Assembly: GCA_905234125.1 (NCBI GenBank)
Contig: CAJOGQ010000030.1
Coordinates: forward strand, 6,670 to 47,584
Direction of reading: 5' to 3'
Length of the DNA: 40,915 nt
Source: an uncultured Bacteroidaceae bacterium
GTDB taxonomy: Bacteria > Bacteroidota > Bacteroidia > Bacteroidales > Bacteroidaceae
Below the pieces are notes generated by a model, which saw only the letters and a list, made by a program, of their open reading frames with translations, ran no database searches and was not told the origin of the DNA. Shown piece by piece: positions 797 to 40,659 of the stretch (the stretch's first letter is position 1; each line of letters begins with the position of its first letter). The position numbers and the translations under genes are program-made.

Positions 797-830
797 CTGT
801 CAACTGTCAACTCTCAACTGTCAACTGTCC
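797..830. repeat. heptamer array, TCAACTG type
   Basis: Four exact-period units CTGTCAA, CTGTCAA, CTCTCAA, CTGTCAA are followed by a degenerate fifth unit whose last base is the A of the next ATG. The array fills essentially all of the spacer between the pfkA stop and the miaA-like start, leaving no Shine-Dalgarno sequence. Confidence 0.9.
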
Positions 831-1580
831 ATGAACGACCTGCTGACCATATTGGGGCCGACGGCCTGTGGCAAGACGACCTTCGCTACACATCTGGCCT
901 ACGACTTGGACGGGGAGATTATCAGCGCGGATAGTCGGCAGGTGTATCGGGGTATGGACATCGGGACGGGAAAGGACTTGGCTGATTATCATGTGAAGGG
1001 GAAGGACATCCCTTACCATCTGATAGACATTGCGGAGGCTGGCACGAGATATAATGTGTATGAGTGGCAACGGGATTTCCTGAATGCCTACGAAGACATC
1101 ACGAAGAGAGAGAAGACCCCGATACTCTGTGGAGGAACGGGCATGTATATCGAAAGCGTCATCAAGGGATATGAGTTCGATGGGCGAACCTTCCCAGCGT
1201 TCAATTCGCTGATTATTGGTCTGGAGATTAGCCGTGACCTCCGTCGGGAGAGAATCAGCCAGCGGCTGAGAGCCCGTTTAGACGAGGGAATGGTGGACGA
1301 AATCAGAGGACTGATCGATAGGGGAGTGTCAACGGAACGCTTGATTCGATATGGGTTGGAGTACAAGTTCGTCACGCTCTATCTGTTGGGCAAGTTGCAG
1401 TACGACGAAATGGTTTCCCTGTTGGAGATTGCCATCCATCAGTTTGCCAAGCGTCAGATGACGTGGTTCCGCGGAATGGAAGAGCGTCGTGGCATCAAAA
1501 TCCATTGGCTCAGCATCGAACTGCCGATGGAGGAACGTATTGAAAAAGTGAAAGAGTTATGGCAGAAGCAAATCGCATAG
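831..1580 (+). CDS. miaA: MiaA-like tRNA dimethylallyltransferase lacking the insertion domain
   Basis: MiaA transfers a dimethylallyl group to A37 of tRNAs reading UNN codons. Visible motifs are the P-loop GPTACGKTT (residues 9-17), SADSRQVYRGMDIGTGKD (around 36-53), CGGTGMYIESVIKGYEF (around 101-117), and the C-terminal block GLEYKFVTLY followed by IHQFAKRQMTWFRGMEER. The protein is 249 residues, whereas family members are about 300. The shortage is in one place: KGYEF is joined through about five residues directly to FNSLIIGLEI, so the roughly 60-70 residue helical insertion and the following DTxxxxRAIE region are absent. There is no stop or frameshift, so it is an in-frame loss. Bacteroidales usually carry two miaA paralogues, so this copy may be dispensable or specialised. 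The lipid kinase gene overlaps its end by 22 bp. Confidence 0.85.
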   Translation: MNDLLTILGPTACGKTTFATHLAYDLDGEIISADSRQVYRGMDIGTGKDLADYHVKGKDIPYHLIDIAEAGTRYNVYEWQRDFLNAYEDITKREKTPILCGGTGMYIESVIKGYEFDGRTFPAFNSLIIGLEISRDLRRERISQRLRARLDEGMVDEIRGLIDRGVSTERLIRYGLEYKFVTLYLLGKLQYDEMVSLLEIAIHQFAKRQMTWFRGMEERRGIKIHWLSIELPMEERIEKVKELWQKQIA

Positions 1581-2500
1581 GAGTTGTATATAATCCACAT
1601 TCAGGCTTCGACTATTCGCACAAGCGCTGGAAGCGCATCCGTGAGTATATGGAGCAGAAGGGGGTGCCGTATGACTTTTTGCAGTCGGAAACTCCCGAAT
1701 CGGTGGAGCGTCTGACGAAGATGATGTGCGAAAACGGCTACCATACCATCGTGGTGGTGGGTGGCGATGGTTCGCTCAACCGTGCTGTCAATGCCATTAT
1801 GGAGAGCCGTGAGATTTTGCCCGACGACTTCGCCTTCTCCGTCATCCCCAATGGTTCGGGCAATGACTTCGCCCGCTTCTGGGGTGTTGCCCTGAGCGAC
1901 TACAAGATGGCGATTGATGGCATTATTGCTCATCAGACCCGAAGGATTGACGTGGGTTGTTGCACCTATCAGGACGATAACATCCCCCAACGGCGATACT
2001 TCTTGAATTGCATCAACATCGGACTGGGCGCACGTCTGGTCAAGACAATGATTGATGCCACCCACATTCTGGGTTCCAGCAAGATTTCACTCATCTGGTC
2101 TTTTATTGTCCGCATTTTCGAACGCAAGCAGTTCAATATTGCGCTGAAGATTGAGACGGAGGATGTGGCCGACAAGTTTATGTCTGTCTGCATCGGCAAC
2201 TGTCATGGTTATGGGCAGACTCCCAACTCTGTTCCTTATAATGGGCTGTTGGACGTGTCTGTCATCACGCGTCCTGAATGGTGGCAGCTGTTCGAAGGAT
2301 TCTGGCTGTTGGGCAAAGGACGATTCCTTAATTATAAGAATGTGCATCCTTATCGTGCCCGTCAGATTCATGTGACTGAGGTGGACAAGGCGTTGGTGTC
2401 GTTGGATGGTGTGGTGTTGCAGTCAAAGCATCCCACTCCGATGCGCATCAACATTCAGCAGGATGCCCTCAATTTTATTGTGCCCGCGATTCCTGATTGA
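1559..2500 (+). CDS. diacylglycerol/lipid kinase family protein (DagK/YegS type)
   Basis: The 313-residue product is a soluble lipid kinase of the DAGK catalytic family, which phosphorylates diacylglycerol or related lipids at the inner face of the membrane. The N-terminal NPHSG motif (residues about 12-16), VVVGGDGSLNRAVNAI (about 63-78; GGDGS is the nucleotide-binding signature) and IPNGSGNDFARFWG (about 97-110) are all present, and the C-terminal half is the usual beta-rich lipid-binding part. The ATG at 1559 overlaps the preceding gene by 22 bp, suggesting translational coupling. The exact substrate cannot be read from sequence. A heptamer array follows the stop codon. Confidence 0.88.
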   Translation: MAEANRIGVVYNPHSGFDYSHKRWKRIREYMEQKGVPYDFLQSETPESVERLTKMMCENGYHTIVVVGGDGSLNRAVNAIMESREILPDDFAFSVIPNGSGNDFARFWGVALSDYKMAIDGIIAHQTRRIDVGCCTYQDDNIPQRRYFLNCINIGLGARLVKTMIDATHILGSSKISLIWSFIVRIFERKQFNIALKIETEDVADKFMSVCIGNCHGYGQTPNSVPYNGLLDVSVITRPEWWQLFEGFWLLGKGRFLNYKNVHPYRARQIHVTEVDKALVSLDGVVLQSKHPTPMRINIQQDALNFIVPAIPD

Positions 2501-2504
2501 AGCC

Positions 2505-2532
2505 CTCAACTGTCAACTCTCAACTGTCAACT
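2505..2532. repeat. heptamer array, TCAACTN type, between convergent genes
   Basis: Four perfect units alternate CTCAACT and GTCAACT. The array begins 4 bp after the lipid kinase stop and ends 4 bp before the stop of the convergent Crp/Fnr gene. It nearly fills the 36-bp spacer; no ordinary terminator hairpin is visible here. Confidence 0.9.
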
Positions 2533-2536
2533 CTCC

Positions 2537-3241
2537 TCACCCCAATTTATTGATTCTTTCCAGCATCTCGTTGTCGATGATCTTGATTTTCTTGCCATCG
2601 ATAGCGATGATTTTTTCTTGCGCAAACGAGGAGAGCGTGCGGATGGCATTTGAGGTGGTCATGTTCGACATGTTGGCGAGGTCTTCACGAGAAAGGTAGA
2701 TGGAAAGTGTCGCACCATCCTCTTCCAGTCCATAGTTGTCGCGAAGGAACAAAAGCGACTCAGCCAGACGACCACGAATGTGCTTTTGGGTGAGATTCAC
2801 CGTCCGCTGGTCAGAGTTGCCCACTTCGACGGCCAAAAGTCGGATGAAGAACATGGCTAACTGGTTGTTCTCCATCATCCATTTCTCTATCAGCTCGACG
2901 GGGATGAGACCAATGGTGCTATATTCGAAAGCGGAAGCTGTCGTGGCGTAATTCTGGTTGGCAAAGTAAGCACGAAAACCGAAATACTCGACGGGTTTGA
3001 TGACACGGATAATCTGTGTGCGTCCGCTGATGCCTCCCTTGTGGATTTTGATTTTTCCGCTGACGAGGCAATGCAACATTTGTGGCACATCCCCCTCTTG
3101 GTAGAGCACCTCATTCTTTTTGAAATGTTGTATGGATATGTTGTCTTTCAGTTCCTCCTGTTGCTCCTCTGAAAGTAATTGCATGATACTTTGAAGGCTG
3201 TTGATTGTGTCTGCCAAAAGCGTTGAATCTTTCTTTCTCAT
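2537..3241 (-). CDS. Crp/Fnr family transcriptional regulator
   Basis: The 234-residue protein has an N-terminal cyclic-nucleotide-binding-like beta-roll (around residues 30-130, with FKKNEVLYQEGDVPQMLHCLVSGKIKI) and a C-terminal Crp-type winged helix (around 155-225, recognition helix region LSREDLANMSNMTTSNAIRTLSSF). The cAMP-contacting RxS pair of E. coli Crp is not recognisable and there is no FNR-type cysteine cluster, so the effector is unknown. It is divergent from the glycogen operon and shares a 226-bp intergenic region with it, which makes that operon a plausible target, but this is inference from position only. Confidence 0.9.
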   Translation of the reverse strand: MRKKDSTLLADTINSLQSIMQLLSEEQQEELKDNISIQHFKKNEVLYQEGDVPQMLHCLVSGKIKIHKGGISGRTQIIRVIKPVEYFGFRAYFANQNYATTASAFEYSTIGLIPVELIEKWMMENNQLAMFFIRLLAVEVGNSDQRTVNLTQKHIRGRLAESLLFLRDNYGLEEDGATLSIYLSREDLANMSNMTTSNAIRTLSSFAQEKIIAIDGKKIKIIDNEMLERINKLG

Positions 3242-3263
3242 TGCCCAATTTAATTTTGCGGTG

Positions 3264-3294
3264 CAAAGTTACATACATCTTACAAACTGACAAA
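3264..3294 (-). promoter_or_regulatory. Bacteroidetes-type promoter for the Crp/Fnr gene
   Basis: On the minus strand a TTTG (3294-3291) is followed after 19 bp by TAACTTTG (3271-3264), matching the -33 TTTG and -7 TAnnTTTG pattern. The start codon is about 22 bp downstream. Confidence 0.75.
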
Positions 3295-3381
3295 ATATTC
3301 CCTCGATTTTCTGCTATTTAGCATGTTTTTGTCCCTTTTTTTGAGAGAAAGTGATTTTTTTTTGAAAAAAATCCAAGAAAC

Positions 3382-3413
3382 TTTGTTCACTCGAAAAATA
3401 ATCCCTAAATTTG
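3382..3413 (+). promoter_or_regulatory. Bacteroidetes-type promoter for the glycogen operon
   Basis: TTTG at 3382-3385, a 20-bp spacer, then TAAATTTG at 3406-3413, a full match to the -33/-7 consensus. The debranching-enzyme start codon is 54 bp downstream. The promoter is preceded by an A/T-rich tract at 3330-3375. Confidence 0.8.
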
Positions 3414-3467
3414 AAACGAAAACTAACAATTTATCTAAAGCAATCTACAATACCTTAACTTACAGAT

Positions 3468-5411
3468 ATGAGTTATTTACGTTTTGATAAGGCTCAAATG
3501 ACCAATCTGCAGGAGTCACTTCCAAAGGAAATTCTGCGGACAAACAGGTCGGGTGCGTATTCATGTTCATCCATCGTTGACTGTAATACGCGTAAATATC
3601 ATGGTTTGTTGGTTGTTCCTGTTCCCGAGTTGGGCGATGAGAACCACGTCTTGCTTTCCTCGCTGGATGAAACCGTCATTCAGCATGGTGCGCAATTCAA
3701 TCTCGGACTCCACAAGTATTCGGGTAATGTGTACAGTCCTAACGGGCACAAGTACATTCGCTCGTGTGAATGGGATAGACTTCCAACCACCATCTACCGT
3801 GTGGGTGGTGTCATCTTGAAGAAGGAGAAGGTTTTTCAGCATTTTGAGAACCGCATCCTGATTCGCTACACCTTGCTCGATGCACATTCGGCGACAACCC
3901 TCCGTCTGCGTCCATTCCTGGCATTCCGCAGCGTGGAGGAGTGTACGCATGAGAACGGAAAAGCCAGCAGGCAGTATGATGTGATAGACAACGGTATCAA
4001 GACCCGTCTCTATCCAGGTTATCCAGAACTGATGATGCAGCTCAACAAGAAGAATGACTTCGTGTTTGAGCCCAACTGGTATCGGGGCATCGAATACCAG
4101 AAGGAGCAGGAGCTGGGTTACGACTACAAAGAAGACCTCTACGTGCCAGGCTACTTCGAGTTCAACATCAAGAAGGGCGAGAGCGTTGTCTTCTCTGCTG
4201 GAGTCAGCGAGCTGAAGACCAGTCAGTTGAAGAAGATTTTCGACCACGAGGTTGAAGTGCATGTTCCTCGCATCAACTTCCAGTCTTGTTTGGTGAACGC
4301 AGCACATCAGTTCCACTATGAGCGTGATGGCGAGACCTACATCATTGCGGGTTATCCTTGGTTCAAATGCCGTGCGCGTGACATGTTCGTCTCTCTGCCA
4401 GGCTTGACCCTTGCCATCGACGAGGTGGAATACTTCGAGAAGACCATGAAGACTGCTGAGAAAGCTTTGAAAGACTTCATGGATGGCAAGGAATCGAAGA
4501 TTAAGATGTATGAGATTGAAAAACCCGATGTGTTGCTGTGGGCTGTTTGGTGCATCCAGCAATACGCACGTCTGGTCAAAGTCGATTCAGCCCGTGAACG
4601 CTATGGCAAGCTGGTTCAGCAGATGGTTGACTTCGTCCGCGAAGGCAAGCATCCCAATCTTGTGTTGCATGAGAACGGCCTTCTCTTCACCGATGGCCGC
4701 GAGCATGCTGTCACCTGGATGAATTCAGAAATCAATGGCACTCCTGTGGTGCCTCGTTCGGGCTATGTGGTGGAAATCAATGCCCTATGGTACAATGCTT
4801 TGCTCTTCAATGCTGAACTGTTGGTGAATGCAGGTCGTGCAGGTGAGGCTGAAGCATACACTAAACTGGCAGAAGTTACGGGACGTTCCTTCAAGGAAAC
4901 CTTCCTCAACGAACATGGCTATCTGCTCGACTATGTGGACGAGGGCTACATTTCTTGGTCTGTGCGTCCGAACATGCTGATAGCCTCTTCGCTTGAGTAC
5001 AGCCCTCTCACCACGCCAGAGTGCAAGAAAATCTTTGATATTTGCACCAAAGAGCTGCTCACTCCTAAGGGTATGCGTTCCCTCTCGCCCAAGTCGGGAG
5101 GTTACAACCCCATCTATGCCGGAGGTCAGATGCAACGCGATGCCGCCTATCATCAGGGCACCGTATGGCCTTGGCTCTCAGGATTCTATCTCGAAACCTG
5201 CCTCAAGATTTACAAGCGTAGCGGACTCTCTTGGGTGGATCGTTGCTTCTTAGGTTTCGAAGAGGAAATGTTCTATCATTGCATCGGCACCTTGCCGGAA
5301 CTCTTCGATGGCAACCCGCCATTCAGCGGACGAGGCGCATTGTCCTTTGCCATGAATGTGGCGGCAGTTTTGCGTGTGAATAAGGTTCTTTCTAAATTCT
5401 ATAACTATTAA
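3468..5411 (+). CDS. glycogen debranching enzyme (amylo-alpha-1,6-glucosidase type)
   Basis: The 647-residue cytoplasmic enzyme has the bacterial GDE layout: an N-terminal beta domain (about residues 15-230, including NRSGAYSCSSIVDCNTRKYHGLLVVPV) and a C-terminal (alpha/alpha)6 catalytic domain (about 280-640). In the latter YPWFKCRARDMFVSLPGL, the WMNSEINGTPVVPRSGYVVEINALWYNAL block and HQGTVWPWLSGFYLE are the conserved substrate-site segments of the GDE_C family. It removes alpha-1,6 branches from glycogen-like polymers. No signal peptide is present. It is first in a three-gene operon with a GT4 glycosyltransferase (18-bp gap) and a GH57 enzyme, an arrangement also known in other Bacteroidales. 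Confidence 0.92.
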   Translation: MSYLRFDKAQMTNLQESLPKEILRTNRSGAYSCSSIVDCNTRKYHGLLVVPVPELGDENHVLLSSLDETVIQHGAQFNLGLHKYSGNVYSPNGHKYIRSCEWDRLPTTIYRVGGVILKKEKVFQHFENRILIRYTLLDAHSATTLRLRPFLAFRSVEECTHENGKASRQYDVIDNGIKTRLYPGYPELMMQLNKKNDFVFEPNWYRGIEYQKEQELGYDYKEDLYVPGYFEFNIKKGESVVFSAGVSELKTSQLKKIFDHEVEVHVPRINFQSCLVNAAHQFHYERDGETYIIAGYPWFKCRARDMFVSLPGLTLAIDEVEYFEKTMKTAEKALKDFMDGKESKIKMYEIEKPDVLLWAVWCIQQYARLVKVDSARERYGKLVQQMVDFVREGKHPNLVLHENGLLFTDGREHAVTWMNSEINGTPVVPRSGYVVEINALWYNALLFNAELLVNAGRAGEAEAYTKLAEVTGRSFKETFLNEHGYLLDYVDEGYISWSVRPNMLIASSLEYSPLTTPECKKIFDICTKELLTPKGMRSLSPKSGGYNPIYAGGQMQRDAAYHQGTVWPWLSGFYLETCLKIYKRSGLSWVDRCFLGFEEEMFYHCIGTLPELFDGNPPFSGRGALSFAMNVAAVLRVNKVLSKFYNY

Positions 5412-5413
5412 AG

Positions 5414-5420
5414 AAGGAGG
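5414..5420 (+). promoter_or_regulatory. strong Shine-Dalgarno sequence
   Basis: AAGGAGG lies 9 bp before the ATG at 5430, in the 18-bp spacer after the debranching-enzyme stop. It stands out because nearly all other starts in this window lack a recognisable Shine-Dalgarno sequence. Confidence 0.8.
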
Positions 5421-5429
5421 ACAAAGGAA

Positions 5430-6707
5430 ATGAAAGTTTTAATGTTTGGTTGGGAATTCCCTCCTAAGATTTACGGCGGACTTGCAGTTGCTTCCTATGG
5501 CATCACGAAAGGAATGGTTGAAGGTCAGCCTGATGCTGAAATCACCTTTTGCCTCCCTAAGCCATGTGGAGAAGAAGAGCAGTTCCTTCGCATCATTGGC
5601 ATGAATCAGGTGCCCATCGTCTATCGTGGACACGACTACGACTATGTGAAGAGTCGTATCCCCAGCTACATGACTCCTGAGCAGTATTACAACTTCCGCG
5701 ACCACATCTATGCAGACTTCTCCTACATGAATGTCAATGACATGGGTTGCATGGAGTTTGCTGGTGGTTATCCTGGCAATCTGCATGACGAAATCAACAA
5801 TTTCTCCATCATCGCCGGTGTGGTGGCTCGTTCGGAGCAGTTCGACATCATTCATGCTCACGACTGGCTCACTTATCCTGCAGGTGTGCATGCCAAGATG
5901 GTCAGTGGAAAACCCCTCTGCATCCACGTACATGCAACAGACTTCGACCGTTCCCGTGGTAAGGTCAATCCCACCGTCTATTCAATGGAAAAGAATGGTA
6001 TGGATCATGCCGACTGCATCATGTGCGTGTCTGAGTTGACCCGTCAGACGGTTATTCGTGAATATCACCAAGACCCACGCAAGTGCTTCGCTATACATAA
6101 TGCGGTTTATCCATTGCCACAGGAATACCTCGATATTCCACGCGTGGATCATGGCAAGGAAAAGGTCGTCACCTTCCTCGGACGTATCACTATGCAGAAA
6201 GGTCCCGAATACTTCATCGAGGCGGCGGATCTTGTGTGCAAGCGTTCCAAGAACATCCGCTTCTGCTTTGCAGGTTCAGGCGACAAATACTGGGAGATGG
6301 TTGACTTGGCGGCAGCCAAAGGCATAGCCGATCGTGTACACTTCCCGGGCTTCCTGCGAGGCAAGCAAGTGTATGAGTGCTACAAGGCCAGCGACGTGTT
6401 TGTGATGCCATCTGTGTCAGAACCCTTCGGCATTGCGCCCCTTGAGGCCATGCAATGTGGCACACCCTCCATCATCTCCAAGCAGTCAGGCTGTGGCGAA
6501 ATTCTCGATAAGGTCATCAAGGTGGACTATTGGGACATCAACGCGATGGCAGATGCTATCTACTCCCTCTGCACCAACGAAGGCCTCCACACTTATCTGC
6601 GCGACGAGGGTCTCAAGGAAGTGGCTGAAATCACCTGGGTGAAAGTAGGTCACCGCATCCGTAAACTCTATGACGAGTGCATCTACAACGGAGGATTTAT
6701 ACATTAA
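5430..6707 (+). CDS. GT4-like glycosyltransferase, probable glycogen/starch-type synthase
   Basis: The 425-residue protein has the GT-B fold of retaining glycosyltransferases. It opens with MFGWEFPPKIYGGLAVAS, where the KxYGGL segment is the nucleotide-sugar loop also seen in glycogen synthases. HAHDWLTYPAGV (about residue 141-152) ends the N-domain, VTFLGRITMQKGPEYFIEA (about 248-266) starts the C-domain, and SEPFGIAPLEAMQCGTPSIIS (about 330-350) carries the E-x7-E signature. It has no signal peptide. Its place between a debranching enzyme and a GH57 enzyme points to synthesis or elongation of an intracellular alpha-glucan; donor (ADP- or UDP-glucose) is not evident from the sequence. Confidence 0.85.
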   Translation: MKVLMFGWEFPPKIYGGLAVASYGITKGMVEGQPDAEITFCLPKPCGEEEQFLRIIGMNQVPIVYRGHDYDYVKSRIPSYMTPEQYYNFRDHIYADFSYMNVNDMGCMEFAGGYPGNLHDEINNFSIIAGVVARSEQFDIIHAHDWLTYPAGVHAKMVSGKPLCIHVHATDFDRSRGKVNPTVYSMEKNGMDHADCIMCVSELTRQTVIREYHQDPRKCFAIHNAVYPLPQEYLDIPRVDHGKEKVVTFLGRITMQKGPEYFIEAADLVCKRSKNIRFCFAGSGDKYWEMVDLAAAKGIADRVHFPGFLRGKQVYECYKASDVFVMPSVSEPFGIAPLEAMQCGTPSIISKQSGCGEILDKVIKVDYWDINAMADAIYSLCTNEGLHTYLRDEGLKEVAEITWVKVGHRIRKLYDECIYNGGFIH

Positions 6708-6716
6708 TTGACGAAT

Positions 6717-6737
6717 ATAATAAATAGTAAATAGGAT
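6717..6737. repeat. short heptamer array, ATARTAA type
   Basis: Three units ATAATAA, ATAGTAA, ATAGGAT occupy the spacer just before the ATG at 6739. The array is short and A/T-rich, so chance is possible, but it has the same 7-bp period and stop-to-start placement as the longer arrays. Confidence 0.5.
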
Positions 6738-6738
6738 C

Positions 6739-8205
6739 ATGAAAAAGATTTGTCTTTATTTTGAGATACACCAAATCGTCCATCTCAAGCGCTACCGTTT
6801 TTTTGACATCGGTCGCGACCATTATTACTACGACGACTACGAGAACGAGCGTTCTATCAATTACATCGCCGAACGTAGTTATGTGCCTGCCCTTCAGACG
6901 CTTATCCAGATGTGTAAGGATCATCCTGAATTTAGGGTTGCCTTCTCCCTCTCGGGTGTAGGTCTGGAACAGCTTGAGTTCCATGCACCACAGGTCATTG
7001 ACCTCCTCCACGAGATCAATGCCACAGGACAGGTAGAGTTCCTTTGTGAGCCTTACAGCCACGGATTGGCCTCCCTCGCCAACGAGGAGAGTTTTGCCGC
7101 TGAAGTGAAGCGCATGAGCGACCGCATTAAGGAACTCTTCGGCAAACGTCCAAAGGTGTTCCGCAACTCTTCTCTCATCTACAACGATGACATCGGCGCA
7201 CAGGTAGCAGGCATGGGCTTCAAGGGTATGATTACAGAAGGTGCCAAGCAGGTGCTCGGCTGGAAGTCGCCACACTACATCTATCATTGTGCTTCAGACC
7301 CTCGTCTCAAACTCCTTCTGCGTGACATCAGTCTCTCAGAGGACATCACCGAACGTTTCACATCTCATCCGATTATGGCTGACCAGTGGATTGACTGGGT
7401 GGCTTCTACACCAGAGGGTGAGAATTTCATCAACATCTTCGGCGAGCTCGTCACTTTTGGCATTTTCCATCCCATTCAGAGTGGCATCCTCGAATTCCTC
7501 AAGGCCATCCCTGTGCTTGCCAAGCAGCGTGGCATCGGATTCGCATTGCCATCCGACTTCTGCGAGGAGAAGAGCGTAGGTGCCATCGAAGTGCCCTACA
7601 ACATCTCGTGGGTGGACGAGGAACGCGATACCTCTTGCTGGCTCGGTAATGTCATGCAACGTGAAGCCTTCCAGAAGCTATATAGTGTCGCAGACCGCGT
7701 CCGTGTGTGTGGCGACCGTCGTCTTCAGATGGACTGGGATTCCCTCCAAGCATCCAACAACTTCCGCTTCATGACAACGAAGCCCGGTTATCAGTACAGG
7801 GGAATCTATGACAGCCCATACGATGCTTTCACCAATTACATGAACATCCTCGGCGATTTCATCTCGCGTGTCAATAACCTTTACGGAGGTGCTGACAACG
7901 AAGAGATTGACGGTCTCATCACCATGATCAAGAATCAGGGCGACGAACTGGCTGCCAAGGACAAGGAGATAGAGCGTCTGCGAAAGAAACTGGAGAAGTT
8001 CAACCCTACGGAGTTGGAAGAGAAGAAGCCTGCCAAGAAAGCTACAGCACCTAAGAAAGCTCCAGCCCCCAAGAAGGTTACTGCTCCTAAGGAGGCTGTC
8101 AAGGCTGAGCCTGCTCCTAAGGAAGAACCTAAGGCAGAACCATCTCCAAAGGAAGAGGCCAAGAAAGCGCCAGCCAAGAAAGCAACAACTTCTAAAAAGA
8201 AATAA
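6739..8205 (+). CDS. GH57 family alpha-amylase/glucanotransferase with basic histone-like tail
   Basis: Residues about 1-390 are a GH57 catalytic domain: it starts with ICLYFEIHQIVHLKRY, and contains the conserved QVEFLCEPYSHGLASL strand (about 95-110) and GMGFKGMITEGAKQVLGWKSPHY (about 158-180). GH57 enzymes hydrolyse or rearrange alpha-1,4-glucans with retention. After about residue 395 comes a predicted coiled coil (GDELAAKDKEIERLRKKLEKF), then about 60 residues made almost only of Lys, Ala, Pro, Glu and Thr, in repeats such as APKKAPAPKK and PKEEPKAEP, reminiscent of histone H1 or bacterial DNA-binding tails. No signal peptide is seen, so it acts in the cytoplasm. It is the last gene of the glycogen operon and is followed by a clear terminator. 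Confidence 0.9.
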   Translation: MKKICLYFEIHQIVHLKRYRFFDIGRDHYYYDDYENERSINYIAERSYVPALQTLIQMCKDHPEFRVAFSLSGVGLEQLEFHAPQVIDLLHEINATGQVEFLCEPYSHGLASLANEESFAAEVKRMSDRIKELFGKRPKVFRNSSLIYNDDIGAQVAGMGFKGMITEGAKQVLGWKSPHYIYHCASDPRLKLLLRDISLSEDITERFTSHPIMADQWIDWVASTPEGENFINIFGELVTFGIFHPIQSGILEFLKAIPVLAKQRGIGFALPSDFCEEKSVGAIEVPYNISWVDEERDTSCWLGNVMQREAFQKLYSVADRVRVCGDRRLQMDWDSLQASNNFRFMTTKPGYQYRGIYDSPYDAFTNYMNILGDFISRVNNLYGGADNEEIDGLITMIKNQGDELAAKDKEIERLRKKLEKFNPTELEEKKPAKKATAPKKAPAPKKVTAPKEAVKAEPAPKEEPKAEPSPKEEAKKAPAKKATTSKKK

Positions 8206-8256
8206 TACGGTATTTGACGTTGCCATAAGGCATAAATTTAAGTTAGTAAAAGGGGA

Positions 8257-8287
8257 GAAGGCTGCAGTGATTGCACCCTTCTTTTTC
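8257..8287 (+). terminator. rho-independent terminator of the glycogen operon
   Basis: The stem pairs GAAGG (8257-8261) with CCTTC (8277-8281) and TGCA (8263-8266) with TGCA (8272-8275), with one C:C mismatch and a 5-base loop, followed by five T. Confidence 0.85.
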
Positions 8288-8316
8288 CATACTCCTACAA
8301 ACAACAACAAATCATA

Positions 8317-10344
8317 ATGAAAACTAAAAAGATTTTGATGATGATGGCAATAGCTGCATCGATGACGGCTTGCAACCAGCAGACAGCGGGTATCAAGCTG
8401 GAGAACATGGACATGACTGCGAAGCCCGGAACGGACTTCTACCAGTATGCATGTGGCGGATGGATGAAGAATAATCCGCTGAAACCTGAGTATTCAAGCT
8501 ATGGTTCGTTCGACGTGGTGGCGGAAGAGAACCAGAAGCGTATTCGCGAATTGATTGAGGGCTTGGCTTCCCAACCTCAGGAGAAGGGCTCCTTGGGTCA
8601 GAAGATAGGCGACTTGTATGCACTCCGTATGGACTCCGTGCGTCAGAACAAGGAGGGCGTGAAGCCGGTAATGGCTGATTTGGAGCGCGTAGCGAAGGTC
8701 TCGACAACTGAAGAACTCATTGCCTTAGTGAATCAGATGAACACAGAAGGTGTTGTGTTTGGCGAGTTGTGGGGTTCATACGTAGGTGCCGACATGATGG
8801 AGTCAACGCAGAACTTGTTGGAAATTTCGCAGGGTGGCTACTCGATTGAACGCGACTACTATGTGAAGGATGACGAGGCGAACAAGAAGATTCTGGAGGC
8901 GTATAAGAAGCACATAGTGAAGATGTTCCAATTGGTAGGTGAAACACCAGAGTCGGCGCAGAAGAAGATGGAGAATGTCTTGCAGTTGGAGATGCGAATG
9001 GCGAAGGCTGGTCGTGATAATGTGGCGTTGCGCGACCCGGCATCGAACTATAACAAGATGTCGTTTGCGGAGTTTCTGAAGGATTATAAGGGCTTCGATT
9101 GGAAGACTTATTTCGACGTGCAGGGTCTCACCGACATCGACTCACTCTCGGTGGGTCAGCCGGAAGCTGTGAAGGAAGCCCTTGCCGTGCTAAAGGATAC
9201 GCCAGTAGAGGTGCTGAAGGATTTCTTGCAGTGGCAGATACTGGATTCGGCTGGTGGCATCCTTGGTGATAAAGTGTATGAGGAGGTTTTCGACTTTGAA
9301 GGACGCATTATGACGGGTGCCAAAGAACCTCATCCTCGCTGGAAGCGTAGTGTGAATGCAGTGAACGGCATCTTGGGCGAGGCGGTTGGCCAGATGTATG
9401 TGGAGAAGTATTTTCCACCAGCTAACAAGGCACGCATGGAGGAACTCATTAAGAACCTGCAAATTGCCCTCGGTGAACGCATCGATGCACAGGACTGGAT
9501 GAGCCCAGCCACCAAGGCTGCTGCTCATGAGAAGCTGGACGCTTTCTATGTGAAGGTGGGCTATCCGAACAAGTGGCGCGACTACTCGAAAATGGACATT
9601 GATCCTCAGAAGTCGCTTTATGAGAACATGAAGGAGGTGGTGAAGTGGGCGCATGCCGACATGTTGGAGCGCAAGTGGAAGAAGCCTGTAGATAGGGATG
9701 AGTGGTACATGAATCCGCAGACGGTGAATGCCTACTACAATCCTACCACCAACGAAATCTGCTTCCCTGCTGGCATCCTGCAATATCCATTCTTCGACAT
9801 GGAGGCTGATGATGCTTTCAACTACGGAGCAATCGGTGTGGTGATTGGCCATGAGATGTCGCATGGCTTTGATGACCAGGGACGTCAGTTTGACAAAGAT
9901 GGAAACTTCCGCGACTGGTGGGCTGAGGGTGACGGCGACAAATACAACGAACGTGCGCAGGTCATCAAGGATTTCTTCTCAGCCATCAAGGTGTTGCCTG
10001 ATCTCAATGCCAACGGCGACCTTTGCTGTGGTGAGAACTTGGGTGACCATGGCGGTTTGAAGTTTGCTTACACCGCTTTCAAGAATGCGACCAAAGATAA
10101 TCCTCTGCCTGTGAAGGACGGCTTCACACCTGAACAGCGTTTCTTCTTGGCTTATGCAGGTGTGTGGGCTGGCAATATCACAGAGGAGGCCATCCGCAAT
10201 CTGACCACCAGCGATCCTCATTCATTGGGCAGGTGGCGTGTGAATGGTGCTCTTCCATTGATTGATGCCTGGTACGACGCCTTTGGCATCACAGAGAATG
10301 ACCCACTTTTTGTGCCGAAAGAGAAGCGTGTGAAGATTTGGTAA
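8317..10344 (+). CDS. M13 family zinc metallopeptidase, lipoprotein (PepO/neprilysin-like)
   Basis: The 675-residue protein begins with a lipoprotein signal (hydrophobic stretch ending SMTAC-N, cysteine at residue 19), so it is probably membrane-anchored on the periplasmic or outer face. The M13 N-terminal domain covers about residues 35-410 (PGTDFYQYACGGWMKNNP is typical). In the catalytic domain the zinc site HEMSH is in GVVIGHEMSHGFDDQGRQFD at about residue 510-530, the third ligand glutamate is in CGENLGDHGGLKFAY (about 570), and SDPHSLGRWRVNG and the terminal tryptophan match the family end. These enzymes cleave peptides below roughly 40 residues. It is separated from upstream genes by a terminator and has its own terminator. 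Confidence 0.95.
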   Translation: MKTKKILMMMAIAASMTACNQQTAGIKLENMDMTAKPGTDFYQYACGGWMKNNPLKPEYSSYGSFDVVAEENQKRIRELIEGLASQPQEKGSLGQKIGDLYALRMDSVRQNKEGVKPVMADLERVAKVSTTEELIALVNQMNTEGVVFGELWGSYVGADMMESTQNLLEISQGGYSIERDYYVKDDEANKKILEAYKKHIVKMFQLVGETPESAQKKMENVLQLEMRMAKAGRDNVALRDPASNYNKMSFAEFLKDYKGFDWKTYFDVQGLTDIDSLSVGQPEAVKEALAVLKDTPVEVLKDFLQWQILDSAGGILGDKVYEEVFDFEGRIMTGAKEPHPRWKRSVNAVNGILGEAVGQMYVEKYFPPANKARMEELIKNLQIALGERIDAQDWMSPATKAAAHEKLDAFYVKVGYPNKWRDYSKMDIDPQKSLYENMKEVVKWAHADMLERKWKKPVDRDEWYMNPQTVNAYYNPTTNEICFPAGILQYPFFDMEADDAFNYGAIGVVIGHEMSHGFDDQGRQFDKDGNFRDWWAEGDGDKYNERAQVIKDFFSAIKVLPDLNANGDLCCGENLGDHGGLKFAYTAFKNATKDNPLPVKDGFTPEQRFFLAYAGVWAGNITEEAIRNLTTSDPHSLGRWRVNGALPLIDAWYDAFGITENDPLFVPKEKRVKIW

Positions 10345-10371
10345 GAAGTAAGAGACAAAAATTGTAAATTG

Positions 10372-10404
10372 AAACCCCGAATGAGCGAATCATTCGGGGT
10401 TTTT
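10372..10404 (+). terminator. rho-independent terminator after the M13 peptidase
   Basis: A perfect 12-bp stem (10373-10384 with 10390-10401) around the loop GCGAA, followed by five T. One of the strongest hairpins in the window. Confidence 0.95.
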
Positions 10405-10450
10405 CATGTTTTTTAATTTTTTTTGAGGAAAAATGAGAAAAAAGTGCAAC

Positions 10451-10486
10451 TTTGTGAACAAAATAAAGAAAAAGTTTGTACCTTTG
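10451..10486 (+). promoter_or_regulatory. promoter of the low-complexity secreted protein gene
   Basis: TACCTTTG at 10479-10486 matches the -7 box. The nearest TTTG is at 10451-10454, giving a longer than usual 24-bp spacer, so the -33 assignment is uncertain. Confidence 0.6.
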
Positions 10487-10537
10487 GGACACTAATCACA
10501 ATTACTTATAGCAAACCTATCGATGAAGACTATGTTT

Positions 10538-11311: not shown

Positions 11312-11313
11312 TA

Positions 11314-11348
11314 ATAAGTGAAAAGAGAAAAGTGAAGAGTGAAAAATC
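11314..11348. repeat. heptamer array, AARAGTG type
   Basis: Five units ATAAGTG, AAAAGAG, AAAAGTG, AAGAGTG, AAAAATC start 2 bp after the stop codon at 11311. The array runs into the left arm of the 21-bp palindrome at 11331-11399. Confidence 0.75.
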
Positions 11349-11399
11349 TAAGTTTCCACCATCCGGATGGCAAGTAATTTAGATTTTTCACTCTTCACT
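11331..11399. terminator. large bidirectional hairpin between convergent genes
   Basis: A perfect 21-bp inverted repeat (11331-11351 against 11379-11399) encloses a 27-base loop that itself contains the 12-bp perfect palindrome CCATCCGGATGG. On the minus strand the stem is followed by a T-rich tract. It sits between the convergent ends at 11311 and 11415 and probably terminates both transcripts. Confidence 0.8.
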
Positions 11400-11414
11400 A
11401 TTAATTCTGAACTC

Positions 11415-18761: not shown

Positions 18762-18796
18762 ATGTTTAATGTTAAATGTCAGATGTGAAATGTAAT
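18762..18796. repeat. heptamer array, ATGTNAN type, in operon leader
   Basis: On the plus strand five in-phase units read ATGTTTA, ATGTTAA, ATGTCAG, ATGTGAA, ATGTAAT. The array lies between the putative -7 box (18804-18811) and the aldo-keto reductase start codon, so it would be in the untranslated leader of the fucose operon mRNA. Confidence 0.75.
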
Positions 18797-24325: not shown

Positions 24326-24369
24326 CAATTCTTAAATGATCTGCATGCCATTAGAACTGGCTTTTGAAC

Positions 24370-25536
24370 ATGACACTACTTGAACAAAATATTGACAAGA
24401 TTCCTTCGCCTTGTTATGTGATGGAGGAGGAGTTGTTGCGAAGGAACTTGGAGTTGATTCGCAGCGTGGCACAGCGTGCTGACGTAGAAATCATCTTGGC
24501 TTTCAAGGCGTTTGCGTTGTGGAAGAGTTTCCCGATTTTTCGTGAGTACATCGGCCACACGACGGCTTCGTCGCTGTTTGAGGCTCGACTGGCGAAGGAG
24601 GAGTTTGGAAGCAAGGCACATACGTATTCGCCGGCTTATACGGAGGAGGAGTTTGAGGAGATTCTCGACTGCTCCAGCCATATCACGTTTAATTCTCTGA
24701 GCCAGTACGCTCGTTTTGTGCCGATGGTGAAGGGTCGGGCATCGATAGGTTTGCGTGTCAACCCTGAATACAGCGAGATTGAGACGGAGCTTTACAATCC
24801 TTGTGCCCCTGGTTCCCGTTTTGGCATCTTGGCGAAGGATTTGCCTGCAACGTTGCCTGCTGACATCGAGGGTTTTCACATCCATTGCCATTGTGAGTCG
24901 GGCAGCGATGTCTTCGCACGTACATTATTACATATAGAGGAGAAGTTCTCGCCTTGGTTTTCCCAGCTGAAGTGGATAAACTTTGGTGGGGGGCACTTGA
25001 TGACGCGCAAAGACTATGATGTGGAGCTGCTCATCAAGACGTTGCAGGGGTTTCATGCCCGCTATCCCCATCTGAAGGTCATCCTCGAACCAGGTAGTGC
25101 ATTTGCTTGGCAGACGGGACCGCTCGTCACGAAGGTGGTGGACATCGTGGAGAATGCTGGCATCAAGACGGCCATCATCAATGCCAGCTTCACTTGCCAC
25201 ATGCCAGACTGTTTGGAGATGCCCTATATGCCTGAGATTCGTCATGCGGAAATGGTTGACTCTCAACTGTCAACTCTCAACTGTCAACTCTCAACTATCT
25301 ACCGTATCGGTGGCAATTCTTGTCTCTCTGGCGACTTCATGGGCTTTTGGCATTTCGACCACGAACTGCAGATAGGGGAGACGCTCATTTTTGAGGACAT
25401 GATTCACTACACGACGGTGAAGACCACCATGTTCAATGGCATTGGTCATCCTTCCATCGGCATGCTAAAAAAAGACGGAACATTTGAGTTGTTCCGTCAA
25501 TATACTTACGAAGATTATCGCGACAGGATGTGTTGA
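24370..25536 (+). CDS. nspC: carboxynorspermidine decarboxylase
   Basis: This is a 388-residue PLP-dependent decarboxylase of the alanine-racemase-fold III group; it produces spermidine or norspermidine from the carboxy intermediate. Visible: PSPCYVMEEELLRRNL, LAFKAFALW (the PLP lysine, around residue 41-49), GLRVNPEYSEIETELYNPC, FHIHCHCESG, INFGGGHLMT, VILEPGSAF, and RIGGNSCLSGDFMG with the active-site cysteine of the second subunit. ATG 24370 is chosen over an in-frame TTG 6 bp upstream. A foreign-looking stretch SQLSTLNCQLSTI, encoded by a heptamer array, is inserted just before YRIGGNSCLSGD; the frame stays open. The gene has its own promoter and no partner carboxynorspermidine synthase in the window. 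Confidence 0.93.
   Translation: MTLLEQNIDKIPSPCYVMEEELLRRNLELIRSVAQRADVEIILAFKAFALWKSFPIFREYIGHTTASSLFEARLAKEEFGSKAHTYSPAYTEEEFEEILDCSSHITFNSLSQYARFVPMVKGRASIGLRVNPEYSEIETELYNPCAPGSRFGILAKDLPATLPADIEGFHIHCHCESGSDVFARTLLHIEEKFSPWFSQLKWINFGGGHLMTRKDYDVELLIKTLQGFHARYPHLKVILEPGSAFAWQTGPLVTKVVDIVENAGIKTAIINASFTCHMPDCLEMPYMPEIRHAEMVDSQLSTLNCQLSTIYRIGGNSCLSGDFMGFWHFDHELQIGETLIFEDMIHYTTVKTTMFNGIGHPSIGMLKKDGTFELFRQYTYEDYRDRMC
25262..25296. repeat. heptamer array inside the nspC reading frame
   Basis: Five perfect units alternate CTCAACT and GTCAACT. This is the same array type as at 2505-2532, but here it is translated, encoding about 13 residues close to the catalytic cysteine motif. Confidence 0.95.
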
Positions 25537-28721: not shown

Positions 28722-28732
28722 AAAATATGTCT

Positions 28733-28767
28733 CTTAACTATCAACTCTCAACTATCAACTATGTTAG
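28733..28767. repeat. heptamer array between tRNA-Asp copies
   Basis: Units CTTAACT, ATCAACT, CTCAACT, ATCAACT and the degenerate ATGTTAG occupy most of the 46-bp spacer between the two tRNA genes. Confidence 0.9.
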
Positions 28768-28841: not shown

Positions 28842-28876
28842 ATTAACTATCAACTCTCAACTGTCAACTCTCCACT
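28842..28876. repeat. heptamer array upstream of tRNA-Asp
   Basis: Units ATTAACT, ATCAACT, CTCAACT, GTCAACT, CTCCACT directly abut the 5' end of the first tRNA gene. This array would be part of the tRNA precursor leader. Confidence 0.9.
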
Positions 28877-28906
28877 CCAGAACCCCTGTTCCTTCGTTAG
28901 CGAGTG

Positions 28907-29001: not shown

Positions 29002-29009
29002 TAAAAGAG

Positions 29010-29750: not shown

Positions 29751-29757
29751 TATAGAT

Positions 29758-31323: not shown

Positions 31324-31328
31324 GCATT

Positions 31329-32348: not shown

Positions 32349-32360
32349 AAATCGAACAAA

Positions 32361-32789: not shown

Positions 32790-32839
32790 CTTCGGGCAAC
32801 AGATATTGTAATTCGTAAATCATCAAATTGTAGATAAAC

Positions 32840-34012: not shown

Positions 34013-34041
34013 AAAGGAACTTACACATTATTATATATAAT

Positions 34042-34075
34042 AGGGGACACTCCGAATGGAAGTGCCCCCTGTTTT
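34042..34075 (+). terminator. terminator of the propionate-pathway operon
   Basis: A 10-bp stem with one A:C mismatch (34042-34051 with 34061-34070) followed by GTTTTT, about 30 bp after the stop codon. Confidence 0.8.
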
Positions 34076-34085
34076 TATGTGTGTT

Positions 34086-34123
34086 GTTGAATCGTCTGTT
34101 TGTAAGCAGTTGAATCGTCTGTT
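34086..34123. repeat. 15-bp direct repeat between convergent operons
   Basis: GTTGAATCGTCTGTT occurs at 34086-34100 and 34109-34123, 23 bp apart, with a degenerate GTTGAGCGT following. No function is apparent. Confidence 0.7.
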
Positions 34124-34148
34124 GTATGCTGTTGAGCGTATGCTCAGG

Positions 34149-36639: not shown

Positions 36640-36663
36640 AATATATAATATGTGTATTGCTTT

Positions 36664-37371: not shown

Positions 37372-37373
37372 CT

Positions 37374-37408
37374 TTTTTAATTTATAATTTATAATTGACA
37401 ATATATAA
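37374..37408. repeat. heptamer array, TTTATAA type
   Basis: Five in-phase units TTTTTAA, TTTATAA, TTTATAA, TTGACAA, TATATAA. The array reaches to within 2 bp of the preferred ftsE start codon (minus strand). Confidence 0.8.
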
Positions 37409-37453
37409 TAGCCATGCGGATTGCTTGTCGGTTGGCTTGCATCGCGTTAGCCT
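37409..37453. repeat. fixed spacer between two heptamer arrays, with shared 18-bp motif
   Basis: 45 bp of non-periodic sequence are flanked on both sides by 7-bp arrays. Bases 37435-37452 (GCTTGCATCGCGTTAGCC) recur with one mismatch at 40612-40629, again next to a heptamer array. Confidence 0.8.
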
Positions 37454-37488
37454 ATTATATATTATACATTATATATTGTACATTAGTG
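37454..37488. repeat. heptamer array, ATTATAY type
   Basis: Five in-phase units ATTATAT, ATTATAC, ATTATAT, ATTGTAC, ATTAGTG. The last unit contains the hisIE stop codon (minus strand, 37485-37483). Confidence 0.88.
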
Positions 37489-38094: not shown

Positions 38095-38101
38095 TTTATA
38101 T

Positions 38102-38115
38102 ATTTTACATTTTAC
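38102..38115. repeat. two-unit heptamer repeat ATTTTAC
   Basis: Two perfect copies of ATTTTAC, followed by the degenerate ATCGTCA, sit in the 25-bp spacer between hisF and hisIE. Short, so weak on its own. Confidence 0.5.
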
Positions 38116-38119
38116 ATCG

Positions 38120-38911: not shown

Positions 38912-38920
38912 CTCTATTCT

Positions 38921-38955
38921 CTTAACTATCAACTGTCAACTATCAACTCTCAACT
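38921..38955. repeat. heptamer array between hisA and hisF
   Basis: Units CTTAACT, ATCAACT, GTCAACT, ATCAACT, CTCAACT on the plus strand. The hisA stop codon (38956-38954 on the minus strand) is formed partly by the last unit, and a degenerate sixth unit extends in phase to within 3 bp of the hisF ATG. Confidence 0.92.
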
Positions 38956-39676
38956 ATCCCAAGTATTTCTCCAGCTCCTCCATCTTTATCTTTCCCTCAT
39001 AAATCGCCTTGCCAAACACCACAGCAGGGATGCCAGCCGAGTTCAGCAGGTCGATGTCCTCGATGCAGCTCACGCCACCGCTGGCGATGAGATACAGATT
39101 GGGGAACTCCCTCATGATGTCCTCATACAGCTTCACGGCAGGCCCTTCCAGCATGCCGTCCTTGCTGATGTCGGTGCAGAGCACATTGTCCACACCCTTG
39201 GCCACATACCTGTGCAGGAAGGGCAGCAGCTCATCCTCCCCCTCTTCCTTCCAGCCGTTGATGCTGATGCGTCCGCCCTTCACGTCGGCGCCCAAGATGA
39301 TCTTGTTGTCGTTGTATTTCTCGAGCCAAGTCTCAAATAGCGCAGGATTCTTCACCGCTACACTGCCGATGGTCACCATTGTGGCACCGCTGGCAAAGGC
39401 CACGTCAATGTCCTCGTCCGTCTTGATGCCCCCGCCGAAGTCAATCACCAGGCTCGTGTGGTCGGCGATGCGTTCGATGGTCTTGTAGTTGACGATGTGC
39501 TGCGAGCGCGCACCATCCAAGTCCACTGTGTGCAGACGTCTGATGCCGTGAGCCTCAAACATCTTGGCCACCTCCAAAGGGTCCTCGTTATAGACCTTCT
39601 TCGTGTCGTAGTCGCCCTGAGTCAGACGCACGCACTTGCCATCAATAATATCTATTGCAGGAATTATCTCAATCAT
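38954..39676 (-). CDS. hisA: ProFAR isomerase
   Basis: This 240-residue (beta/alpha)8 isomerase catalyses step 4 of histidine synthesis. Seen: EIIPAIDIIDGKCVRLTQGDY (first catalytic Asp), LHTVDLDGA, VIDFGGGIKTDEDID, GATMVTIGSVAVKNP, ILGADVKGG, VLCTDISKDGMLEGP (second catalytic Asp), LIASGGVSCIEDI. It lies 8 bp after hisH and is closed by the heptamer array. Confidence 0.96.
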   Translation of the reverse strand: MIEIIPAIDIIDGKCVRLTQGDYDTKKVYNEDPLEVAKMFEAHGIRRLHTVDLDGARSQHIVNYKTIERIADHTSLVIDFGGGIKTDEDIDVAFASGATMVTIGSVAVKNPALFETWLEKYNDNKIILGADVKGGRISINGWKEEGEDELLPFLHRYVAKGVDNVLCTDISKDGMLEGPAVKLYEDIMREFPNLYLIASGGVSCIEDIDLLNSAGIPAVVFGKAIYEGKIKMEELEKYLG

Positions 39677-39684
39677 ATATTATT

Positions 39685-40293: not shown

Positions 40294-40315
40294 TATGCTT
40301 AACTAAAAAACGGCA

Positions 40316-40348
40316 CAAAGGTACGACTTTTCCACGACATACGCACAA
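40316..40348 (-). promoter_or_regulatory. promoter of the his-ftsE-lys gene run
   Basis: On the minus strand TTG (40348-40346), a 22-bp spacer and TACCTTTG (40323-40316), 23 bp before the hisH start codon. The leader is too short for a histidine attenuator. Confidence 0.75.
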
Positions 40349-40538
40349 TATTTAAATATAAAAGTGAAATTTTCACCCCTATTTTTCCCAATAAGATACC
40401 CCAAGGGAATCTTCATTCCTTCCCCCAATTTGCAAAAAACAAAATAACCGATAAACCAATTAACCTTTAGCAAAGTCACACGTCAGAATCCAATCTTCCT
40501 GATTGATATATGGTCAAACCACACCTGAAATGATGAAA

Positions 40539-40588
40539 AGGACATATAGATATGAAACACCCGTGTAGCGATGATGCCGCACGGGTGC
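40539..40588 (-). repeat. 50-bp dispersed hairpin element, copy 2
   Basis: On the minus strand it reads stem GCACCCGTG... with CACGGGTG, then the TTCATATCT-x-TATGTCCT tail, gapless and 45/50 identical to 29073-29122. Differences keep the stem paired (G:C or G:T changes). It points toward hisH, about 215 bp ahead of its -7 box. Confidence 0.85.
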
Positions 40589-40611
40589 CTTTTCATTGCA
40601 ACGCTCCTATT

Positions 40612-40629
40612 GCTTGCATCGCGTCAGCC
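40612..40629. repeat. 18-bp motif shared with 37435-37452
   Basis: GCTTGCATCGCGTCAGCC differs by one base from the motif at 37435. In both places a heptamer array begins within 2 bp on the same side, and that array overlaps the stop codon of a minus-strand gene. Confidence 0.8.
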
Positions 40630-40631
40630 CT

Positions 40632-40659
40632 ATCAACTGTCAACTATCAACTGTCACCT
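40632..40659. repeat. heptamer array after the terminal gene
   Basis: Units ATCAACT, GTCAACT, ATCAACT, GTCACCT. The last unit contains the stop codon of the minus-strand gene at 40654. Confidence 0.88.

Follow-up and report, generated by a model that had tools for sequence, protein, structure and literature searches.

The question raised by this locus is why short tandem repeats with an exact period of 7 bp, built from different heptamers, should recur at gene borders along one stretch of a bacterial chromosome. The stretch (the window: 40,915 bp of an uncultured Bacteroidaceae bacterium, G000:C30:6670-47584, in an assembly of 2.695 Mb and 107 contigs that is 84% complete) carries 7-bp-periodic sequence at all 13 coordinates listed in an earlier note; the note spoke of at least fourteen arrays, and its list supports 13. 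Tandem Repeats Finder recovers 12 of these as period-7 loci, missing the one at 6717, which has only ~2 units, and a stricter scan retains 10. We find that such arrays form families dispersed at many sites in this one genome, that each unit joins a constant hexamer to a single degenerate base, and that unit number or the occupying family differs between sister species at several orthologous sites. We tentatively read them as lineage-specific, fast-turning heptamer repeats, spread by short template-switch copying together with slippage and tolerated in unconstrained sequence.

The excess of period 7 is strong in this genome. In the main scan, each period was searched for maximal segments that match themselves at that offset (match +1, mismatch −2, score ≥11), and these were counted as arrays; genes were called with a simple, purpose-built hexamer-score finder. 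The stricter scan found 10 period-7 segments in the window, against 1, 0 and 0 at periods 6, 8 and 9, and 0.1 expected by chance. An unbiased sample of 397 kb (L051–L070, picked regardless of repeats; 52 kb intergenic, 346 kb coding) had 30 intergenic period-7 segments where 0.6 were expected, and 18 coding ones; intergenic segments at periods 6, 8, 9 and 10 numbered 2, 4, 5 and 5. One of the 30 is a run of N (L056), and since such a run self-matches at any period it inflates the counts for the other periods too. The whole genome sample of 1.589 Mb (59% of the genome; 190 kb intergenic and 1.40 Mb coding, runs of N excluded) held 177 intergenic and 59 coding period-7 arrays, compared with 4/9, 19/1 and 7/15 (intergenic/coding) at periods 6, 8 and 9; periods 14 and 21 appear as harmonics of 7. 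Order-2 shuffles of the same sample gave 0.2 intergenic and 1.0 coding period-7 arrays. A 7-nt tandem unit in excess over random is what the heptanucleotide class of long simple sequence repeats displays, and these arrays display it.

At 0.93 per kb, arrays are denser between genes in the whole sample than in the unbiased one (30 segments, including the run of N, in 52 kb), because, of 20 stretches in it, many were picked where TCAACTN matches were already known. The per-base rate between genes is ~11-fold (unbiased sample) to 22-fold (whole sample) that within genes, and 137 of the 930 intergenic gaps of at least 20 bp contain a period-7 array. Both comparisons that the earlier note had proposed, period 7 against 6, 8 and 9 between genes and the rate inside genes against that outside, therefore come out in favor of a period-7 phenomenon here.

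The note had further held that the arrays share a period and not a sequence. This is contradicted already in the window, where 7 of the 13 are TCAACTN; genome-wide, nine seed families (distance ≤1), of the 1172 heptamer classes that are possible, take in 214 of the 236 arrays. The families are TCAACTN (85 arrays), GAAAAGT (the same as AGTGAAN, 29), AAGGRGC (22), AAATGAN (20), TAAACYC (19), AAATGTN (19), CAATAAC (8), TAATATA (8) and AAAAACT (4), and eight of the other 22 arrays are of the AATTAGG type. These seeds were picked post hoc, after a first viewing of the array list; without seeds, the 12 commonest consensus classes contain 132 of the 236 arrays. TAAAC types and TCAACTN are close in sequence and are mixed in some arrays. 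Because most arrays belong to few dispersed families, purely local slippage is insufficient as the whole story; at the same time the note was right to see a phenomenon of period 7 rather than copies of one mobile repeat.

Internal homogeneity, which the note also ascribed to the arrays, fails at one base per unit. Over 384 TCAACTN units variation is almost unrestricted at the seventh position (C202 G121 A51 T10), and the other six scarcely vary (137 minority cells in 2304); the seventh base of AAATGAN is T34 A15 G14 C14. Only 5 of the 38 long TCAACTN runs in this genome are uniform at this base, so the near-identity of units within an array that marks heptanucleotide simple repeats was not found. 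In arrays with at least four units and three variant cells (n = 72), the largest column has 59% of the variants, against 39% expected. Units two apart carry the same free base in 138 of 214 pairs and adjacent units in 153 of 299 (39% expected), and growth by 14 as well as by 7 is therefore likely. Three to five units make up 180 of the 236 arrays. Some period-8 arrays, such as ATAACG-NN, read by eye as a hexamer plus two. Continuity of register between different heptamers in fused arrays (e.g. L047 12115) was unsupported by eye, with the free base as phase mark.

Most sites lie between genes, where arrays are overrepresented in the first 5 bp after a stop codon; the rest are within genes, in a readable orientation. 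In codirectional gaps, 49 of 110 arrays lie no more than 5 bp from the upstream stop, where random placement predicts 28; 25 of 110 lie within 5 bp before a start (28 expected), so the placement just upstream of starts that typifies the TAACTGA repeats discussed below is not seen. Of the 54 arrays entirely within called genes, 44 have coding signal on both sides, and the in-gene TCAACTN arrays take the stop-free orientation in 35 of 37 cases, encoding peptides such as NSQLSTLNSQLST. The array at 25259 lies within a gene and is an exception to the gene-border location described in the earlier note; that at 40633–40656 does supply a stop codon, as the note said of some arrays. Many hexamers hold a stop codon on one strand; a function as three-frame stop cassettes is nonetheless unsupported, because orientation in codirectional gaps is inconsistent (same/opposite as written: TCAACTN 12/19, GAAAAGT 5/8, AAATGAN 9/4, AAATGTN 4/10).

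Comparison with relatives, whose sites were scanned at a lower cut-off (score ≥9), shows turnover. The closest relative seen, G005, is ~85% identical over window positions 1–11007. In its 531-kb sample 31 of the 236 arrays could be placed and 205 could not, some placements leaving up to 87 bp of flank unaligned; 24 of the placed sites have no array there, three have another unit and four the same or a related unit. At L238 14424, one of the 24 arrayless sites, the two genomes differ by exactly 21 bp, or three units. Among the three sites with another unit is L220 17167/17230, where an AATTAGG palindrome corresponds to an AAAAACT-type palindrome in G005.

The in-gene array of the window occupies a loop of a decarboxylase gene, termed nspC-like here from its Pfam domains for pyridoxal phosphate (PLP)-dependent decarboxylase. 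At the DNA level 14 of 30 loci could be placed at this loop (16 unplaced); seven have repeats and seven an ordinary 50-bp coding loop. The repeats are TCAACTN in this genome (loop of 50 bp), TCAACTN-like in G005 and G011 (50 and 53), CAAYTGT in G017 and G025 (56 each), AAATAGT-like in G026 (38) and a TTCAATTT-like octamer in G013 (62), those of G011 and G026 being judged by eye and the other five passing the scans. All of these lengths equal 50 modulo 3. Among 19 loci compared at the protein level, nine loops look repeat-derived, eight ordinary and two ambiguous (G016, G036).

The his junctions vary as well (gene names inferred from Pfam and gene order; four of ten loci unplaced). All six loci placed at the hisF–hisA junction have a period-7 or period-8 array, with differing units: TCAACTN here, CTAAACN types in G005, G012 and G025, TAAACNG in G026 and the octamer CTTCAACT in G036. 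Arrays at hisIE–hisF and hisA–hisH, where present, differ again between species, and no period-7 or period-8 array occurs at hisIE–hisF in five mapped relatives. An inverted-arm element occupies the junction of an ABC-transporter gene with hisIE in three of the six loci placed there, of the ATTATAY type here and of ATTGTAN types in G012 and G025; the other three junctions are just 5–13 bp long and lack it. The G012 and G025 cores have GCATGG on the strand opposite to that of this genome, so their elements may be insertions separate from the ATTATAY element. In the tRNA-Asp spacer only this genome among 12 placed loci has a clear array, G005 having a mixed TCAACT/TTTTCAC stretch. The idea that the period is kept while the heptamer changes accordingly stands for some junctions compared between species, with period 7 or 8, and not within one genome, where the heptamers are not independent from site to site.

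Across 45 genomes of the genus, the families vary widely by overlapping three-unit pattern matches, which are not counts of arrays. TCAACTN has 220 matches here, 182 in G010 and none in 19 genomes; TCAATTN has none here and 95 in G001; AGTGAAN has 41 here, 126 in G063 and none in six genomes; all three are absent from G023 and G032. The counts are positively related across the genus (rho 0.52 for TCAACTN with TCAATTN, 0.31 for TCAACTN with AGTGAAN). Four-unit TCAACTN occurs in 23 of 395 genomes of the phylum, including this one, and among the matches listed it is also found in contigs titled Cyanobacteria, Fibrimonas, Clostridia, Planctomycetota and others. For such pattern searches, including those of genus and phylum, a reversed-pattern control is uninformative for TCAACTN, which is the same read backwards.

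The account that we prefer, with a confidence somewhat short of even, is that of lineage-specific repeats that are seeded, grow, decay and are replaced quickly. Seeding would occur by short template-switch copying from arrays of resident families in the same genome, into sites whose replaced sequence is free of constraint; slippage would then lengthen or shorten the arrays by 7 or 14 bases at a time. For the inverted-arm families, fold-back copying or a MITE-like element (miniature inverted-repeat transposable element) may make and match both arms. The 7-base step could reflect the length of DNA bound by the polymerase, as Mrazek proposed for heptanucleotide repeats according to the available text of a later paper (PMC4679880). 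Either a hexamer-recognizing factor or a low-fidelity seventh position would suffice to give a fixed hexamer with a free seventh base.

Several observations weigh against this account. Neither pure slippage nor template copying predicts that a single column, always at the same place relative to the hexamer, should be free, and this column is itself less clear array by array: it is the most variable, or jointly so, in only 56 of the 76 TCAACTN arrays with any variation, concentration in one column is individually significant (0.05) in just 13 of the 72 arrays of all families, and in G005 three of five long TCAACTN runs are uniform at the seventh base. The preference for period 7 is weaker in G005 (intergenic/coding 37/15, against 20/2 for period 8), and loci from relatives around the left part of the window, 271 kb in all, gave 7 matches at period 7 and 18 at period 15. 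Short related remnants persist at several of the 24 'empty' G005 sites (e.g. arrays 68, 192, 193 and 226), and decay in place is thus part of the picture. No event of copying from a source array to a target site was caught, and the closest relative is only ~85% identical. The test for matching inverted arms is biased, the arms having been selected for matching, and no gene tested separates array-rich from array-poor species.

The best-surviving rival, unlikely yet a serious contender, makes the arrays terminal inverted parts of MITE-like palindromic elements and the lone arrays their remnants. An inverted match of score ≥14 lies no more than 150 bp away from 58 of 236 arrays; pairing arrays with flanks taken from other families gave 19 in 708, and direct matches were found for 16 of 236. 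Inverted partners were found for AGTGAAN in 18 of 29 arrays, TAATATA in 7 of 8, AAAAACT in 3 of 4 and seedless arrays, AATTAGG types included, in 11 of 22; the AATTAGG family, like AGTGAAN and ATTATAY, forms inverted arms around a core. Nineteen AGTGAAN arrays with three exact hexamers have a common 3′ flank, for which reason this family looks like a defined element, and plus/minus pairs recur ~60–120 bp apart among the places listed for G014 and G065. Presence of the ATTATAY element (37372–37483) or a counterpart in three of six placed loci, and absence from three, also fits. Yet TCAACTN has an inverted partner in just 5 of 85 arrays, and the 58 TCAACTN arrays with three exact hexamers showed neither a common flank nor a fixed end phase; a shared flank or target site, sought by flank comparison, was not seen. 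Cores differ between families, same-family flanks at other loci also match (33 of 236), and the genome has no match to a Y1 transposase.

Ordinary local slippage, each array being born in place from a chance heptamer like other bacterial long simple sequence repeats, comes next and is also unlikely. It can draw on Mrazek's result that the heptanucleotide is the commonest long unit in many genomes, as reported in the available text of two papers (PMC4679880, PMC4692102), and on a change of unit number seen at array 193 relative to G005. Long TCAACTN runs elsewhere are also more often uniform: among the matches listed, runs at 80 named loci, fetched with a pattern allowing N, are uniform in 21 of 35 cases in the Bacteroidota list, 26 of 45 in the Cyanobacteria list and 15 of 19 in the rest (a list that includes L117 and L141, Bacteroidota by title), and most TCAACTN places listed outside this genome in the phylum search are uniform. 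Against local slippage stand the concentration of 214 of 236 arrays in nine families, the variable seventh base here, the narrow range of three to five units, and the recurrence of arrays at one loop or junction in several species.

A third rival, selected binding arrays in which a protein recognizes each hexamer and one or two free bases space the sites 7 or 8 apart, seems improbable. The hexamer-plus-one form with its near-random spacer in AAATGA-N is what it predicts, as is hexamer-plus-two at period 8. It does not sit well with several unrelated hexamers in one genome, arrays inside coding sequence, loss or replacement between sister species, or the want of a clear orientation to genes.

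We hold as more doubtful still a dedicated repeat-writing activity in the genus, which would write into unconstrained sequence a six-base word that differs between species, each copy followed by one or two free bases, yielding both intergenic arrays and new protein loops. Several genes were tested as drivers of the arrays. A Y1 transposase (PF01797), as expected of repetitive extragenic palindromes with their associated transposase (REP/RAYT), had no match in this genome, which at 84% completeness is weak evidence of absence, and no difference in array totals was seen between the 14 genomes that have it and the 31 that lack it (p 0.23). mutS1 is present here and above cut-off in 40 of the 45 genus genomes. 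Reverse transcriptase, Y1 transposase and loss of mutS1 are rejected as drivers, for lack of a match or of an association. Telomerase-like, templated heptamer addition by a reverse transcriptase is very unlikely: a template position prone to error would make one fixed base of the unit variable, as observed, but RVT_1 had no match here (again weak evidence from an 84%-complete genome) or in the array-rich G003, G010, G011, G016, G062 and G068, and array totals show no difference by reverse transcriptase presence (17 genomes with, 28 without, p 0.76). Chance or low complexity, suggested by the AT-richness and shortness of many arrays, has negligible probability, being ruled out by the shuffles (177 intergenic arrays vs 0.2) and by neighboring periods without excess in this genome.

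How do these arrays relate to known repeats? Paludibacter and Porphyromonas gingivalis both belong to the Bacteroidales, and heptanucleotide short tandemly repeated repetitive (STRR) sequences are known in cyanobacteria. Direct repeats of TAACTGA occur in marine Beggiatoaceae, some Cyanobacteria and five Bacteroidetes, with two sets in Paludibacter propionicigenes, as given in the available text (MacGregor 2015, PMC4679880). The earlier note's statement that no such system is described in Bacteroidales must yield to these two sets and is otherwise nearly right: among the papers listed in a literature where subscription papers are thinly covered, none reports heptamer families of the present kind in that order. 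Like ours, the TAACTGA repeats are short, dispersed, intergenic arrays (mostly 2–6 units in the Maribeggiatoa genome), their spreading mechanism is not known, and the reading frame limits the orientation tolerated in genes; unlike ours, they have one dominant heptamer, related heptamers are rare as repeats, and most lie just upstream of starts (PMC4679880, available text). Here many families coexist, one base is free, arrays are enriched after stops, and units are swapped between sister species at some sites; TAACTGA is the unit of none of the families listed for this genome.

In the text available to us, MacGregor 2015 cites Mrazek 2007 for the heptanucleotide excess and the idea of polymerase contact and leaves the mechanism open (PMC4679880). 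The excess of the heptanucleotide class is common to our arrays and Mrazek's long simple sequence repeats (as cited in the available text of PMC4679880 and PMC4692102); what sets ours apart from these and from cyanobacterial STRR sequences is the hexamer-plus-one unit, the dispersed families, some palindromic arms, and coding-loop arrays whose unit is swapped between species. Related too are the GGGANTN repeats known from Xanthomonas and the GGGGA(C/T)T repeats known from Nostoc, which, in the portions available, share variable positions, a preference for four units, a mostly intergenic location and differences between related species (Rehm 2015, PMC4692102). Those are G-rich and form G-quadruplexes (PMC4692102, same portions), whereas TCAACTN, AGTGAAN and AAATGAN have no G runs; four G-runs of at least 3 were not found in the main families, and AAGGGGC variants of a minority family do have GGGG. 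A P. gingivalis MITE with an internal minisatellite is a palindromic mobile element containing tandem repeats, as far as its available description goes (PMC4596501); in ours it is the arms that consist of heptamers, and many arrays occur singly. The tandem repeats in Borg elements resemble ours in independent origin, fast evolution and new protein stretches but are archaeal and extrachromosomal (PMC9879509, in part), ours being unit families dispersed on a bacterial chromosome. Repeats of 6–11 bp are overrepresented between genes in a few genomes (PMC4060949, in part).

The best reading of their kind is a variant, not described before, of known heptanucleotide simple repeats. Several bacteria are known to have heptamer repeats, whose origin the papers, in their available text, leave open. 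Forty-five species that range from zero to more than 200 pattern matches per family, unit swaps at some identical sites and a protein loop with different in-frame repeats therefore offer a comparative system in which to test the origin of period 7, of the hexamer-plus-one unit and of the spread of units; the arrays are a good system for how bacteria write and replace short repeats.

Table 1. Period-7 arrays and inverted-arm elements of the window (ORF, open reading frame)
Feature	Position	Strand	Context
TCAACTN array, 4.7 units	797..829	+	between gene ending 795 and IPP-transferase ORF (Pfam IPPT) starting 831
TCAACTN array	2505..2535	+	between convergent diacylglycerol-kinase and Crp-like genes (Pfam)
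AAATAGT-type short repeat, ~2 units	6717..6735	+	seen in sequence; under scan threshold
AGTGAAN array, left arm of palindromic element	11316..11343	+	between convergent genes
Core AAATCTAAGTT...CCGGATGG...TTTAGATTTTT and right inverted arm of AGTGAAN element	11344..11399	.	similar core in other copies
Degenerate AAATGTN array	18762..18793	+	Tandem Repeats Finder, 80% match; under stricter threshold
TCAACTN array encoding ...DSQLSTLNCQLST...	25259..25296	+	inside PLP-dependent decarboxylase gene, ORF 24364-25536
TCAACTN array	28731..28762	+	between two tRNA-Asp genes
TCAACTN array	28845..28877	+	upstream of second tRNA-Asp gene; relative L320 has ATTTACN there
TTTATAA array and left inverted arm of ATTATAY element	37374..37411	-	
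Core with CCATGCGG and CATCGCGTTAGCC between ATTATAY-element arms	37412..37452	.	
ATTATAY array, right arm of ATTATAY element	37453..37485	+	
ATTTTAC repeat, 2.3 units	38102..38117	-	hisIE-hisF junction
TCAACTN array	38919..38958	+	hisF-hisA junction
TCAACTN array, supplies stop codon	40630..40656	+	3' end of minus-strand multicopy gene

A few sites of the window (Table 1) deserve comment. An Rfam search at the gathering threshold found only two tRNAs in the window, so no known RNA family underlies the arrays. Where the first TCAACTN array lies, the G005 sequence is different and includes opposite-strand pieces resembling AGAGTT; at the junction of the second, no array is visible in G005 or the other mapped relatives. 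The G005 junction matching the AGTGAAN element has AGTGAAN-like arms enclosing a different hairpin. CGGTTRTA repeats of period 8, along with another repeat of 16 bp, lie in a relative (L197 8183) at the junction matching window 6707–6739. ORF 10523–11311, which has no Pfam match, contains an 18-bp coding repeat (CAATGCTCAATCAGGCGA) at window 11032–11094.

The multicopy gene fragment at the right end of the window (40654–40915) is found in at least seven places of this genome (also L049, L065, L250, L323, L324 and L052) at 92–97% identity and has no Pfam match. Several copies are at contig ends, their 3′ flanks mostly differ, and a TCAACTN array stands at the border in most, with ~1 to 5 units or none (L250). 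Likeness between copies stops within the array in L049, L065 and L323 and continues past it in L324 and L052.

The short motif GGCTRACGCGATG recurs between genes, adjoining heptamer arrays or GC-rich stretches, and is found in some inverted-arm elements together with CCGCATGG (window 37412–37452 and 40610–40630; L051 3024, 7930, 9951, 11703 and 15058; L062 12075). Inverted-arm elements often adjoin TACCTTTG-like sequences, sometimes on both sides (L048 918, L057 7330, L065 13246, L244 9780), which we take to resemble the −7 box of Bacteroidetes promoters. Finally, the genome sample has a separate excess at period 22 (47 intergenic arrays, 3 coding) made up of several sequences (e.g. L035 4387–4473, L213 10406–10462 and L069 2324–2480), many of them GC-rich with palindromic GAGCCGGTAGCTC-like units.

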